Of a stretch of DNA of 41,137 nucleotides, positions 13,413 to 25,587 are shown one piece after another; position 1 is the stretch's first letter; every line of letters starts with the position of its first letter. Below the pieces are notes generated by a model that saw only the letters and a list, made by a program, of their open reading frames with translations, ran no database searches and was not told the origin of the DNA. The translations under genes were made by a program, and so were the position numbers. This DNA comes from Candidatus Gastranaerophilales bacterium. GTDB lineage: Bacteria > Cyanobacteriota > Vampirovibrionia > Gastranaerophilales > Gastranaerophilaceae. Location of the stretch: NCBI GenBank assembly GCA_944324185.1, contig CALUVI010000015.1, positions 1-41,137 of the forward strand. The letters run 5' to 3'.

Positions 13413-16106
13413 CTATATATCGTTGAGGTTTTCATTCAAGAATCTGACTCTGGTTATATCAAATATCTGATTAGGATTAACCAGCTTCATCAAGTCATCT
13501 GCCCGAAGAGCCGGAATGTCAGACCCCTGACCGGTTTTTAGACATATAAACAGACTGTCTTCATCAAATCTATGCGTTCCGATAGATTTCTTAAAATCTG
13601 TTGTTTTTTCAAAACCTTTCTTGTTTTTCTTTGTGATTAAAACTTCTTCACAAGACAAAACCTTATCTACATCATAGCGGAATTTTTCAAAATTGTAAAG
13701 GGATTGCGCATTTGATTTCAAATATGGAGTTATGCGATATTCTGCCCACTGTGCTTCAATATCCACGGCATCAGCAAACTGTTCTATTCTTTTTACGCCG
13801 ATTATTGCAGCGCTTGCAGGCAGATTCGGATTGATAATATTTTTAACCTCTTCTTCACTCAGGTTATCAAAAATCTCAATATCAACAAGTTCGCCTTCGC
13901 TCTCGGCAAACAGAGGAAGTGCAATTCCCATTGAAACTTTCATTGTAGGGTTAAATCCGAGAGTATAAACCATATTCAACCCGCTTCTTGCAAGAACTTT
14001 ATGGAAAGTGTTCTGCCAGTCAAGGTGGGAAAAGTATCTTAAAAGCCCTTTTTTAGTCACTTTTAGCCTGTATCTGTAAATCGGGATATTAGGGTCTCTA
14101 TGCGCTCTTGAAGGGTCTTGCGGCTCTAAAGACACAATTTTTTGTGCTTCATCAGAAGCCGTATAAGGTTTTGCCGTTACTTTATGCGTTTTTAAAGACG
14201 GGCAAACCCCGCAATTTACGCATTTGTTTTCGCACGTCGGGGTAAAAATGAGGGGCTGGTTTGCACCTGCTTCCGGCTTAGCGTTTTTGAAAGCGTCTTT
14301 GTATTCATTTTGCAGCCATTCTTTGGATAAACCGATATTTATAAAATCCCACGGCAGGGGTAAATTTATATCAAACTCACGGTTCGCAAGTTCTGAAAGC
14401 GTAAACCCGCATTCTTTTGCAGTCTCCGCCCAGACATTTTTGTCAAAATATTCGCCCCACGCATCTAAGTAGCATCCTTTTTTATAAAGAGCTTCTATAT
14501 ATTTGCAAAGACTTGCATCTCCTCTTGTTAATACAGCTTCTATTTGTGAAACATATTTTTCGTGGTAATTAATTTTCACACCTTTTATATGTTTTGTTTT
14601 TTCTTTCAAATAATTTATATGTTCCGTAACTTCGTCTAAATCCATCTGCGGACACCACTGAAACGGCGTAAATGGTTTCGGAACAAAAATTGAAAGCGTG
14701 CAGGTTATTTCAAACCCGTGGTTTAGACCTTTTTCACGTTTTATAAGCTTTGAGCGGTACTTAATTTTATTCAACAACTCTGCCATCTCGTCCATATCTT
14801 CAAGTGTTTCTGTCGGAAGTCCCGCTATAAAATAGAATTTAATCTTTGACCAGCCGTTCTCGTATAGTGTAAGGGCGGCATTAATAATCTGCTCTTCCGA
14901 AATATTTTTCTTAATTAAGTTCCTTAGCCTCTGGCTTCCTGCTTCCGGCGCAAGCGTCATACCGGATTTTCTAACTGTATGCATAAGATTTGCAAGCTCA
15001 AGATTAAACCCGTCAATCCTCTGACTTGGAAGAGATACTGACACTTTTTTCTTATTAAAATCAACTGCCAGCTCTTTTATAACCTCTTTGATATTGGAAT
15101 AATCGTTTGAAGACAGAGACAATAGCGAATATTCATCATAACCCGTATTTTTAACGAGTTCTTTTGTAATCTTAATTATATCCTCAGCAGAGCGCTCTCT
15201 AACAGGCAAAGTTACATGCCCAGGCTGACAGAAACGGCACATTCTTCCGCAACCGCGCCTGATTTCCACAATAGCTCTGTCGTGGACGGAACTTGAAAAC
15301 GGTATCGGGTAGGCAGTCGGGGTGTATTCCAATTTTAATGGTGAAATACGTTTTTCGACGGTTTTATACAGTACCCCCCTACCCCCTTCGGGTACTTCCC
15401 CCGCAAGGGGGGCAGATGCAGCTGCGCCGGCTTGATTGGATAAAGATTTAACTGCCGTGTCGGAAGCTTCCCCCGCCCCTTGTGGGAGGGGGTTAGGGGG
15501 AGGGGTTAGCGCACTGTTCCAGCATCCTTTTATTTTACATAAATCTTCAATTCTTTCTTTTCTCGGAAGCCCTTTTGTTCTCTCAAGAGATTCGCAAACC
15601 TCGACCATCATTTCTTCGCCGTCACCGATGCAGAAAACGTCTATAAATTCCGACAAAGGCAGCGGGTTAAATGCACAAGGACCGCCAGCCAGAACAATCG
15701 GCTCTTCCTCGCGCCTCTCATCATTCCTTACCGTTATACCGCCCATCTCCAGCATTTTTAAGACAGTGGGATAGGATAATTCATATTGGAGTGAAAAACC
15801 GATTCCGTCAAAATCTTTTAGCGCTCTTTTAGATTCAACGGCATAAAGATACTCCGGCTTAAAATCCGGCTCCGGCGCATAAGCCCTGTCAGCGAGCATG
15901 TCAGGCTGAGAATTTACTCTGTCGTAAATAATCCTAACACCTAAATTACTTATACCGATTTCATATTTATCCGGAAAAACAAATGCAAAGCGGACTTTTG
16001 CGCTTTCCCAGTCTTTGTTGTACGAGAAAAACTCTCCGCCCACGTATTGATACGGTTTTGTCGCTTTGAATAACGCTTCCTGCTGATCTCTAAAAAAACA
16101 ATTCAT
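13413..16106 (-). CDS. TIGR03960-type radical SAM protein fused to DUF2344 (TIGR03936)
   Basis: An 897-residue two-part protein. Residues 1-195 form a B12-binding-like domain (IGISNLGVRIIYDRVN, GIGFSLQYELSYPTVLKML, VLAGGPCAFNPLP). The radical SAM core carries C286-x3-C290-x2-C293 for the 4Fe-4S cluster. A second cysteine cluster near 620 (TCENKCVNCGVCPSLK) precedes the DUF2344 domain, starting at YRYRLKVTKKGLLRYFSHLD, about 680 to the end. The family neighbours rne/rng in many genomes, as here (49 bp upstream of rne); its reaction is not established, though tRNA or RNA modification is often guessed. Residues about 199-245 are a translated repeat. Confidence 0.9.
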   Translation of the reverse strand: MNCFFRDQQEALFKATKPYQYVGGEFFSYNKDWESAKVRFAFVFPDKYEIGISNLGVRIIYDRVNSQPDMLADRAYAPEPDFKPEYLYAVESKRALKDFDGIGFSLQYELSYPTVLKMLEMGGITVRNDERREEEPIVLAGGPCAFNPLPLSEFIDVFCIGDGEEMMVEVCESLERTKGLPRKERIEDLCKIKGCWNSALTPPPNPLPQGAGEASDTAVKSLSNQAGAAASAPLAGEVPEGGRGVLYKTVEKRISPLKLEYTPTAYPIPFSSSVHDRAIVEIRRGCGRMCRFCQPGHVTLPVRERSAEDIIKITKELVKNTGYDEYSLLSLSSNDYSNIKEVIKELAVDFNKKKVSVSLPSQRIDGFNLELANLMHTVRKSGMTLAPEAGSQRLRNLIKKNISEEQIINAALTLYENGWSKIKFYFIAGLPTETLEDMDEMAELLNKIKYRSKLIKREKGLNHGFEITCTLSIFVPKPFTPFQWCPQMDLDEVTEHINYLKEKTKHIKGVKINYHEKYVSQIEAVLTRGDASLCKYIEALYKKGCYLDAWGEYFDKNVWAETAKECGFTLSELANREFDINLPLPWDFINIGLSKEWLQNEYKDAFKNAKPEAGANQPLIFTPTCENKCVNCGVCPSLKTHKVTAKPYTASDEAQKIVSLEPQDPSRAHRDPNIPIYRYRLKVTKKGLLRYFSHLDWQNTFHKVLARSGLNMVYTLGFNPTMKVSMGIALPLFAESEGELVDIEIFDNLSEEEVKNIINPNLPASAAIIGVKRIEQFADAVDIEAQWAEYRITPYLKSNAQSLYNFEKFRYDVDKVLSCEEVLITKKNKKGFEKTTDFKKSIGTHRFDEDSLFICLKTGQGSDIPALRADDLMKLVNPNQIFDITRVRFLNENLNDI
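15372..15512 (-). repeat. palindromic repeat inserted in frame in the radical SAM gene
   Basis: A GC-rich insert of about 141 bp with C- and G-rich arms (CCCCCGCAAGGGGGG on one side, CCCCTTGTGGGAGGGGG on the other). On the coding strand it reads TPPPNPLPQGAGE...PLAGEVPEGGRG, the translation of a dispersed intergenic repeat. It falls between the B12-binding-like domain and the radical SAM core, in an apparent linker, and keeps the frame open. Related GCAAGGGG/CTTGTGGGAGGG motifs occur in the MITE-like copies at 25.2, 27.9, 35.9 and 40.7 kb. Confidence 0.8.
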
Positions 16107-18829: not shown

Positions 18830-19249
18830 ATGAATAATATTGCTAAAATTTATGATGCCAATAATAAATTTTATGCCGGAATGACTCTTCAAGAGGCAGA
18901 AAAGCTGGGTATTGATAAAAGTTTCTGGCGCAGAGACTTTCATAACCTTGATAAAAACGGTGATGGAGTATTATCTGCCGGAGAAATTCTTAAAGAAAGA
19001 CGTCGTTCTTCCAAAGTAAATAAAATAACTGCTGCCGTGTTTACCGGATTAGGAATTCTGGATGCTATTACAGAAAAATCAAAAAAGTGGTTGATAGTAG
19101 ATCTTGCAATAGATGCGTTTATCGCTGCAAGCGCTCTTTCCAAAGCTTTAAAAACAGATAATCAAACACAAAAATATGAAAAATTTTTGCTAATGTCGCA
19201 GACTGATAAATTTGAAAAATCTACTTCTGAGGAATTAATACTGAAATAA
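18830..19249 (+). CDS. EF-hand calcium-binding hypothetical protein
   Basis: A 139-residue protein with one canonical EF-hand loop, D41-K-N-G-D-G-V-L-S-A-G-E52, whose Ca2+ ligands at loop positions 1, 3, 5 and 12 are all present, flanked by helices. Two hydrophobic helices at about 66-80 and 87-104 suggest membrane association. The C-terminal 30 residues are polar. No signal peptide. A single EF-hand would need a partner or dimer. The ATG follows an AAGGTGTGGA region. Its 3' end overlaps the convergent M16 peptidase gene by 29 bp. The role is unknown; calcium-dependent regulation is a guess. Confidence 0.7.
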   Translation: MNNIAKIYDANNKFYAGMTLQEAEKLGIDKSFWRRDFHNLDKNGDGVLSAGEILKERRRSSKVNKITAAVFTGLGILDAITEKSKKWLIVDLAIDAFIAASALSKALKTDNQTQKYEKFLLMSQTDKFEKSTSEELILK

Positions 19250-20921: not shown

Positions 20922-22235
20922 ATGGGATACCAGTTTTTAATCAAAAAATTTATACAAAAGCCGGAACTTTCACTTAATGTTAACTTCACAAGATTAACGT
21001 CAGGTTCTAAAAAGATGGATATTGCTCTTACATCTTCTGAAAAAAACCTCAGAAACGCGGATTTGGGAACGACTGCATATCAAATCGGAGAAGATGTTAA
21101 GCTGCAGTTTGGTAAAGCAAAAGAGCAGGTTGATAATATATTTGGTGATTTACGTGCTGTTCAGGAAATTATGAATCGTCCGAAGGGGGCTGTATCAATA
21201 TACACCAAGCTTGAGCGCGGTATTAAAGAAAATAAAATTAATTCTTATGAAACAGCAATGAAATATATAGGCGACGGAGTCGGTTCAAGGGTTATAACTC
21301 AAAGGCTTCGGAGATTAGATAATACGCAGATTAATACCATGGTCGAAAACTTGAAAATAAATGGCAATTCTCTGACAAAAGAAGAAAAGATTTTATTAAA
21401 AAAATATATTTACAATCATCCAATGTCGGAAAAAGACGTAGACAGAGCGTTTCCGCTTTTCGAAAAATTTGCGCAGCCGCTTATTGAAAGACGTTCTAAG
21501 CAGGTTGTAGATGAACTTTCTTTATCTATTGCCGCAAATAGAATAAAGAAAGGAGAATTAAGCATTAAAGATATAAAAGAACAGCGGCTTTTGTCTGATG
21601 AATTAATTAAGCGTCTTGAGACAGAAGAGTTTGAACCGCTTGAGGTTTTGTTAATTAATAATTACCGCGGCGGACACGGACTTCCTGAATTCAGCAGCCG
21701 TCAGATTCAAGCTCTTAGAAAAATTTGCGGAAACGGCGTGATAATAAATTCCCGTCCGGAATTAGCAGGCTACAGCAAGTTCCCTAACTATAATTATACA
21801 AAAGATGAGGCTAAAAGATTTGCTATCAAAGCTTCCGGATACAGAACCGGTCAAATGAATGTTATTCATTCAAACGGTGCCAGAGGTGAAATTCAGTTTA
21901 GGGGTGCACTTACAAACGATTTCGGCGAATACGAACATATTGCTTATGACTTAAGACAGGGTAAAAATACTTTAGGTCCGCTTTTTGAGGATTATAAACG
22001 AGAAATTTCTAAATTATCGGAATATAAGTATGAAAAGTATAACAAATATCTGGAAGAGTGTTATAATTACTATAACAGGCTTGAACTCGGACTTCCTGCC
22101 AGTAAACCAAAACTTCCGAGGGGGGTTAACAAAATTTTATCGGAAGAAAATATGAGAAACCTTCACGAGGCAAATGAAAGACGGCTTGCAAGACTAAAGG
22201 AAGGATTTTCTTCTCATTTTGAAGAAGTTGCATAA
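20922..22235 (+). CDS. divergent RelA/SpoT-like nucleotidyltransferase-fold protein
   Basis: A 437-residue soluble protein not assignable by overall similarity, but carrying RelA_SpoT-like landmarks in order: R86-x-K88...S92-x3-K96 (RPKGAVSIYTK), D118-x2-G-x-R123 (GDGVGSRVI), G-Y307-R (ASGYRTGQ), E323-I-Q325-F-R (GEIQFRG) and E338-H (EYEHIAYDL). In alarmone synthetases these bind ATP phosphates, Mg2+ and the acceptor base. The G-loop histidine is replaced by Q311, and about 180 residues, mostly helical, separate D118 and Y307, far more than usual. A basic helical tail (365-430) follows. Activity could be (p)ppGpp/(p)ppApp synthesis, another pyrophosphate transfer, or none. Coupled to the next gene. 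Confidence 0.55.
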   Translation: MGYQFLIKKFIQKPELSLNVNFTRLTSGSKKMDIALTSSEKNLRNADLGTTAYQIGEDVKLQFGKAKEQVDNIFGDLRAVQEIMNRPKGAVSIYTKLERGIKENKINSYETAMKYIGDGVGSRVITQRLRRLDNTQINTMVENLKINGNSLTKEEKILLKKYIYNHPMSEKDVDRAFPLFEKFAQPLIERRSKQVVDELSLSIAANRIKKGELSIKDIKEQRLLSDELIKRLETEEFEPLEVLLINNYRGGHGLPEFSSRQIQALRKICGNGVIINSRPELAGYSKFPNYNYTKDEAKRFAIKASGYRTGQMNVIHSNGARGEIQFRGALTNDFGEYEHIAYDLRQGKNTLGPLFEDYKREISKLSEYKYEKYNKYLEECYNYYNRLELGLPASKPKLPRGVNKILSEENMRNLHEANERRLARLKEGFSSHFEEVA

Positions 22236-22247
22236 AGGCGGTAATAC

Positions 22248-22658
22248 ATGATAAAATACGATATTAAAAAAATAAGCAGCAAAAATATAAGGATGATACC
22301 GAGAAAAATGGAAAATTTTTCCGAAGAGCTTAACAGTGTTATATCAAAGATGAAAGATCGCATATCAAGGGAAGTTCCTGATAGAGGGTACTTTAGAAAT
22401 TTTGCCGAGGATTTTGAAAATAACAATAAAAATATTTTTGCCCGTGCAATTTCTTTGAGCGTTGAAAAAGATGAAAATATTGAAGGCAGTGCACTTTTAC
22501 TTGTATCGGCTCTTCACCCTTCGATGAATATTGACGCGTCTTCAATGCTTGTATGCGGCAAGCGCGATGAAATTTTAAAGTTTATGAACAAAGATAATTT
22601 TATCGGGAAAGTTGCAGAAGAGATATACAAACTATCAGATTCTTTGAAGAAAGTTTAA
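22248..22658 (+). CDS. hypothetical partner of the RelA/SpoT-like gene
   Basis: A 136-residue soluble protein I do not recognise. It begins 12 bp after the upstream stop, with AAGGCGG as ribosome binding site, so the two are one operon closed by a shared terminator. It appears alpha/beta: a basic N-terminus (KKISSKNIRMIPRK), amphipathic helices at 24-40 and 45-75, a hydrophobic strand/helix GSALLLVSALHP and a final helix. Position and size would fit an antitoxin, regulator or chaperone of the upstream enzyme, but nothing in the sequence proves it. Confidence 0.6.
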   Translation: MIKYDIKKISSKNIRMIPRKMENFSEELNSVISKMKDRISREVPDRGYFRNFAEDFENNNKNIFARAISLSVEKDENIEGSALLLVSALHPSMNIDASSMLVCGKRDEILKFMNKDNFIGKVAEEIYKLSDSLKKV

Positions 22659-22659
22659 T

Positions 22660-22692
22660 AAAAAGCGGAAATTTGAAAAATTTCCGCTTTTT
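22660..22692. terminator. bidirectional intrinsic terminator
   Basis: AAAAAGCGGAAATTT pairs perfectly with its complement (15 bp, loop GAA), with an A-run on one side and a T-run on the other. It serves the RelA-like operon and the convergent dehydrogenase gene. Confidence 0.9.
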
Positions 22693-22697
22693 AGTTG

Positions 22698-25172: not shown

Positions 25173-25505
25173 CACCCACCCTCTTTTAGGCACAACTGTC
25201 CATGATAATCATATAAACGAAAGCCTTATACTACCACATATCTATGCTTGCGTTATATTTAATGATGTCTGGATATAAAAACAGACCCCTCACCCGAATT
25301 TCTAAGTTTCGCCTTAGCTCAACTTGAAATTCTTCCCTCTCCCGCAAGGGGCGAGGAGACTATTACGCTTTGCGTTCAGCCAACCCTCCCCTTGTGGGAG
25401 GGTCGAAATCTTTGATTTCGGGGAGGGGTTTTATACAGACATTTCGTTAGTAATTTTAATACCTAAAATTATCATGAACAGTTGTGCTCTTTTAGGGAGG
25501 GTGAG
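25173..25505. mobile_element. MITE-like element M1 (family M), complete
   Basis: About 330 bp bounded by terminal inverted repeats of about 35 bp: left (25173-25209) contains GCACAACTGTCCATGATAAT, right (25467-25505) contains ATTATCATGAACAGTTGTGC. Inside are GC-rich palindromes with CCCTCTCCCGCAAGGGGCGAGG (broken at 20 bases: CCCTCTCCCGCAAGGGGCGA) and CCTCCCCTTGTGGGAGGGTC. Parts recur at 27880-28035, 35897-36015 and 40688-40765. No transposase is encoded; short frames in it are translations of repeats. Confidence 0.75.
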
Positions 25506-25587
25506 CTGCAAGTTTGGCGTATTCCTTCCTTGGAGGGAATGGTTGTTTACATAATAAACATTATGCAATTTTAATCAAAAAAAATCC

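Follow-up and report, generated by a model that had tools for sequence, protein, structure and literature searches.

A divergent RelA/SpoT-fold gene with a near-obligate orphan partner in a gut Gastranaerophilales genome

The window analyzed here is a 41,137-nucleotide stretch of Candidatus Gastranaerophilales bacterium (contig CALUVI010000015.1), in which two co-directional genes lie 12 bp apart; all features of the pair given below are on the plus strand. The first gene (20922-22235), characterized by its ORF, an AlphaFold model, PDB matches and dN/dS, encodes a standalone 437-aa protein with a predicted RelA/SpoT fold (SYNTH). The second (22248-22658), defined by its ORF, model and adjacency to the SYNTH gene, encodes a 136-aa protein of an orphan family. 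Both reading frames lie where a previous sequence-only reading of this DNA had placed them. By sequence reading, a ribosome-binding-like AGGCGG (22236-22241) precedes the partner gene. Folding also confirmed the single terminator proposed for the two genes, a hairpin 3' of the partner, AAAAAGCGGAAATTT...AAATTTCCGCTTTTT (22659-22693; −17.6 kcal/mol, z −5.45), which none of 200 shuffles equaled. A terminator consensus scan missed this hairpin, probably because its T-run sits within the stem. Elsewhere in the window, an ORF of 139 aa (18830-19249) that weakly matches an EF-hand is located two genes upstream of the pair on the same strand, a radical-SAM-like ORF (13413-16106) contains an in-frame TPPPNPLPQGAGEA...APLAGEVPEGGRGV that resembles a dispersed palindromic repeat within coding sequence, and a PLPQGARR stretch (25324-25554) is similar to the repeat-like stretch of the radical-SAM-like ORF.

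The AlphaFold model of the 437-aa protein, generated with 77 homologs as input, had a pLDDT of 92.6 and a pTM of 0.90. In comparison with solved structures, the top matches of the model were all small alarmone synthetases (Z 10-11, 160-186 residues aligned), led by SaEAS (8vx3; Z 11.0, 3.4 Å, 186 residues) and followed by RelP (6ewz; Z 10.7), RelQ (Z 10.6) and CapRel (7ztb; Z 10.4); unrelated DNA polymerases reached Z 5.3 at most. The Pfam search gave a mixed answer, in that RelA_SpoT (PF04607) was the only match to the window protein and a weak one (E = 1.9e-4), its 22.1 bits falling short of the curated gathering cut-off of 27 bits, which is an operational threshold rather than a structural feature, but relatives pass this cut-off (L042, 32.7 bits; L199, 30.6 bits). 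Moreover, a profile built from 24 relatives matched solved synthetases, with YwaC first (E = 1.4e-5). Because relatives pass the cut-off, the profile matches solved synthetases and the predicted fold agrees, the assignment is more than chance, and a RelA/SpoT-fold pyrophosphokinase domain is a well-supported prediction for this protein. Pfam found no HD, TGS or ACT domain, consistent with the view that the protein is not a long RSH; the same genome also encodes a complete, normal long RSH. The accompanying view that it is not a typical small synthetase was right about the inserted sequence, of which there are two pieces, but the core itself is of the small-synthetase (SAS/SaEAS) type. The SYNTH enzyme had no PADLOC match, searches of PHROGs and NCBIfam returned nothing useful, and no hydrophobic segment was found in the window protein.

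Fold and catalytic residues agree on a divergent RelA/SpoT-like enzyme. The five synthetase landmarks recognized earlier, including DxxGxR, GYR, EIQFR and EH, are invariant or nearly so in an alignment of 77 homologs. In the ATP-donor motif R86-x-K88-x3-S92-x3-K96 (21177-21209), R86, K88 and S92 are invariant and K96 is kept in 76/77, with a spacing identical to that of R64/K66/S70/K74 in FaRel2 (residues per PMC11782079). The Mg2+ aspartate motif D118-G-V-G121-S-R123 (21273-21290) retains D118 and R123 in 76/77 each, the G306-Y307 landmark is present with Y307 kept in 76 or 77 of the 77, and the E323-I-Q-F-R327 and E338-H339 motifs (21888-21938) retain E323 in 76/77 and both Q325 and H339 in 77/77. 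Each of R86, K88, S92, K96, D118, R123, Y307, E323 and Q325 is therefore kept in at least 76 of the 77 homologs.

The G-loop departs from this pattern of conservation with known synthetases. It reads GYRTGQ (21837-21854), with T309 and Q311 in place of the Ser and His of the GYxSxH found in (p)ppGpp synthetases (RSH/SAS). The His-to-Gln change noted earlier extends to the whole family, as position 311 is Gln in 77/77 homologs, with Ala or Thr at position 309 in 76/77, giving T/A-x-Q in 76/77, whereas the long RSH of the same genome keeps SLH (MYQSLH). The SxH at this site recognizes guanosine in RSH, and adenosine 3'-pyrophosphokinases carry GxN there (PMC12226406). From this reading of SxH and its replacement by Gln with Thr or Ala, we infer that the SYNTH acceptor is probably not a guanosine nucleotide. 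However, the G-loop motif alone is no proof of the acceptor, because motif swaps at this site did not switch specificity (PMC12226406).

Between D118 and Y307 lie 189 residues, whereas the long RSH of this genome has 44 there, a difference of about 145 residues. The large insertion previously described between the Mg2+ aspartate and the G-loop is thus present, but as two inserts rather than one. Insert 1 (about residues 131-240; 21312-21641), delimited by alignment and model, is variable and mostly helical, with model helices at 134-143, 153-163 and 170-209, and the D118-N247 spacing ranges from 67 to 172 residues across the family. Insert 2 (about residues 247-300; 21660-21800) is a conserved NYRGGHGLPEFSSRQ element starting at N247 and constitutes a family trait, NYRGxxGxPxFSxxQ, in which N247, Y248 and Q261 are invariant in the 77 homologs.

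The partner protein (model pLDDT 86.6) is predicted to adopt an α-4β-2α fold with a disordered N-terminus, and showed no convincing match to a Pfam family, DUF4065 included. Its model gave only weak PUR-alpha/Whirly matches in the PDB (Z about 6); Tis1, ATfaRel2 and type III chaperones were absent among the matches listed, which is not evidence of absence. PADLOC returned one weak, unconvincing match, and comparisons with the PDB, PADLOC and Pfam revealed no convincing resemblance to a known toxSAS antitoxin or immunity domain, with pZFD, Tis1/IapK, Panacea and hydrolase folds as the reference set. A role of the partner as an alarmone hydrolase was rejected on its predicted fold and the lack of any hydrolase match.

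Matches to the SYNTH family were found in 128 of 386 genomes of the phylum and 27 of 142 genera, nearly all within one Gastranaerophilales family, and its presence within the genus is patchy. The coupling of the two genes, claimed earlier from the window alone, holds across the family: among the 78 SYNTH reading frames not cut by a contig end (80 fetched loci, named assemblies), 76 have the partner directly downstream within 320 bp, among them frames for giants that reach about 3,700 residues. One of the two exceptions is a fragment of a disrupted gene, whose other fragment has the partner beside it. Likewise, 103 of 104 partner-bearing genomes in the 386-genome sample also carry SYNTH, counts that are inflated by genome relatedness. 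Orphan partners distant from any SYNTH gene do occur (L281:1652-2047, L192:11788-12231 and L193:4741-5187; G013, G014 and G111 are among them); these are expected of immunity genes, though they are no proof.

Relative to the closest relative (L108), dN/dS is 0.085 for SYNTH and 0.27 for the partner, and the SYNTH gene is under purifying selection. In at least 12 members of the genus, the neighbor of the pair is the alcohol dehydrogenase that also flanks it in the window. A phage or plasmid origin was rejected, as no match was found in phage/plasmid records or viral contigs. In the tree, the standalone SYNTH copies form one clade and most large-protein copies another. The SYNTH family is lineage-restricted, not a classic mobile TA family, and doubles as a payload within giant multi-domain proteins; the window copy is a standalone, vertically inherited form. 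A separate His-type SYNTH group without the partner occurs elsewhere in the same genomes (L199, L200, L201, L202 and L205); its members are about 360-400 aa long, lie mostly by acyltransferase-like genes and have an N-terminal DTVSF-like stretch. The short motifs DTVxF and I/VxFxG also recur near the N-termini (within the first 60 residues) of many unrelated ORFs in the fetched loci (e.g., L025, L115, L151, L188 and L200), in counts biased by homologs, and may possibly act as a sorting signal; in the genome studied here the DTVxF pattern has 6 sites versus 4 control sites.

In relatives, SYNTH is also a terminal or internal domain of proteins whose lengths range from 740 to over 5,000 residues. 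Some of these giants share a 640-residue N-module, with an EF-hand-like start and Ala/Gly-rich hydrophobic hairpins, with a giant (L189) that has a different C-terminal domain, A5. Giants with the N-module are common within the genus; the genome studied here gave no match to it, and the window protein is standalone without an N-terminal delivery module. The second payload domain, A5, sits at the C-terminal end of giants or close to it (L189:3928-4731; L148:8347-9171; also L190), and L148 carries both SYNTH and A5. It had no identifying match in the PDB or Pfam, and we call it kinase-like on the alignment motifs GxGAFGxGY, VVLKxFH and IIDYGD(VH). HExxH metallopeptidase-like stretches were also seen within SYNTH giants (L031, residues about 1358 and 1896; L034, about 1701), and those of L031 (about 1358) and L034 weakly match Pfam ATLF below its cut-off (E = 1.3e-4 and 0.0062).

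The partner stands beside 7 of 8 N-module giants with SYNTH or A5 versus 0 of 18 with neither (Fisher p = 1.2e-5), where A5 was checked in fetched loci and 0 of 18 means no partner on the contig, so that a few of the 18 are uninformative because their contigs are short. This contrast indicates that the partner goes with the payload (SYNTH, rarely A5) and not with the N-module, and a role as an N-module chaperone was rejected on the 18 partnerless giants. Since homologous partners also follow giants with the kinase-like A5, the partner is not strictly SYNTH-specific.

Several described systems resemble the pair in part. In the exported alarmone synthetases (EAS) SaEAS, VpEAS and AaEAS, SYNTH is the payload of larger proteins, and those linked to a T7SS are followed by a small immunity-like gene (PMC12691689). 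The present family shares with EAS the SAS-type fold, with SaEAS as its top match, and the use of SYNTH as a payload of larger proteins; the placement of SYNTH behind a shared N-module with exchangeable payloads, a polymorphic-toxin/EAS feature, was found in giant relatives only. As differences from EAS, Pfam found no WXG, MuF, Rhs or DUF4157 domain in the giants scanned here, the G-loop motif reads TxQ/AxQ, the protein has two additional inserts, and neither the N-module nor the partner family belongs to those described. The Pfam scan of these giants likewise gave no match for a Sec signal, LXG or PAAR. The toxSAS pairs (FaRel2/ATfaRel2, FaRel and CapRel), a group with RNA/adenine acceptors (PMC11782079), are similar in their SYNTH toxin fold, the FaRel2 donor-residue spacing and a small neighboring partner, which here is co-directional and conserved with the 76 of 78 frames. 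In contrast to toxSAS, the present enzyme is larger (437 residues), and the pair has its own partner fold, gave no match to known antitoxin domains, is lineage-restricted and is mostly syntenic. The adenosine 3'-pyrophosphokinases named Apk2 belong to MuF polymorphic toxins whose immunity proteins are IapK/Aph1 (PMC12226406). Both families have C-terminal SYNTH payloads followed by a small immunity or partner gene, and in both the syn3 SxH is replaced, by GxN in Apk2 and by TxQ/AxQ here, whereas here there is no MuF and no Aph1-like hydrolase gene, and syn4 keeps the RSH-type Arg. Finally, one Panacea antitoxin fold pairs with toxins of different folds (PMC8832971), much as the partner family here pairs with SYNTH and a kinase-like payload, although the partner has no convincing match to DUF4065 or any other Pfam family.

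Taken together, a toxSAS-like toxin-antitoxin role for the pair is plausible, and we somewhat favor the reading that it forms a toxin-immunity unit (type II toxin-antitoxin-like), standalone in the window, whose SYNTH enzyme uses a non-guanosine acceptor. This reading draws on the fold, the catalytic residues, the Gln G-loop, the co-transcription layout, the near-obligate linkage and the tracking of payload by the partner, along with the stable locus, the separation of standalone and large-protein copies in the tree and the dN/dS values; the activity, acceptor, toxicity, direct binding and neutralization that it proposes would proceed as follows. With ATP as donor, the SYNTH enzyme would pyrophosphorylate the 3'-OH of its acceptor, probably a non-guanosine one (for example ATP/ADP/AMP or the tRNA CCA end), and this modification would stop growth unless the partner bound the enzyme and held it off. 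SYNTH also occurs inside giants, accompanied by a relative of the same partner, as one of several exchangeable payloads. Telling against the toxin-immunity reading are a partner unlike known antitoxins, the mid-giant position of SYNTH in some loci, the small number of orphan partners and the association with A5; the last argues against strict specificity, but Panacea is a precedent for one fold with many toxins (PMC8832971).

The main alternative, which fits the data almost as well but which we consider rather unlikely, is that the partner acts as a payload-specific chaperone or export adaptor keeping SYNTH ready for export, SYNTH being a secreted effector instead of an intracellular TA switch. 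Partners behind giants with payloads as different as SYNTH and A5, the EF-hand and hairpin make-up of the N-module, and the INxIxFxG-like stretch with which giant-type partners often start would all suit such an adaptor. However, the partnerless N-module giants argue that it does not serve the N-module, standalone SYNTH proteins retain it despite having neither N-module nor hydrophobic segment, and no secretion chaperone was among the PDB matches of its predicted fold. An ordinary small alarmone synthetase that regulates the endogenous stress response, and in which the partner serves as an allosteric subunit, would be in line with the SAS-type fold, the stable chromosomal locus, the purifying selection and the lack of mobile-element signs. 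This explanation is improbable, as the guanosine-reading SxH is lost in 77/77 homologs, a complete long RSH with SLH already exists in the genome, and the family is patchy within the genus and supplies payloads to giants. If the SYNTH fold had lost catalysis and persisted for binding, to sense nucleotides or RNA, while the partner acted as its effector, the His-to-Gln change and the weak Pfam score would be accommodated, but this reading is very improbable given donor-site and Mg2+ residues that stay invariant across 77 divergent homologs.

More broadly, the toxin-immunity reading could be extended, tentatively, to an undescribed polymorphic-effector system of gut Gastranaerophilales, in which giants with the EF-hand/hydrophobic N-module would carry exchangeable payloads (a RelA-fold pyrophosphokinase with a non-guanosine acceptor, a kinase-like domain and an ATLF-like HExxH peptidase) alongside immunity proteins from a new fold family that track the payload; the window pair would be the stripped-down standalone form of this system. 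Exported and toxic alarmone synthetases are already known (PMC12691689, PMC11782079, PMC12226406); new here are the lineage, the invariant Gln G-loop, the two inserts, the orphan partner fold and the undescribed N-module. In a literature search that mostly left out subscription journals, we found no description of this SYNTH-partner family and no described effectors for non-photosynthetic gut cyanobacteria. With this pair, the toxic and exported alarmone synthetases would gain a lineage-specific branch in these bacteria. Because Gln invariably replaces the guanosine-reading His, acceptor specificity can be tested directly, and the partner, an orphan family in which genomic association sets payload apart from delivery module, provides a clean case for distinguishing immunity from chaperone function.
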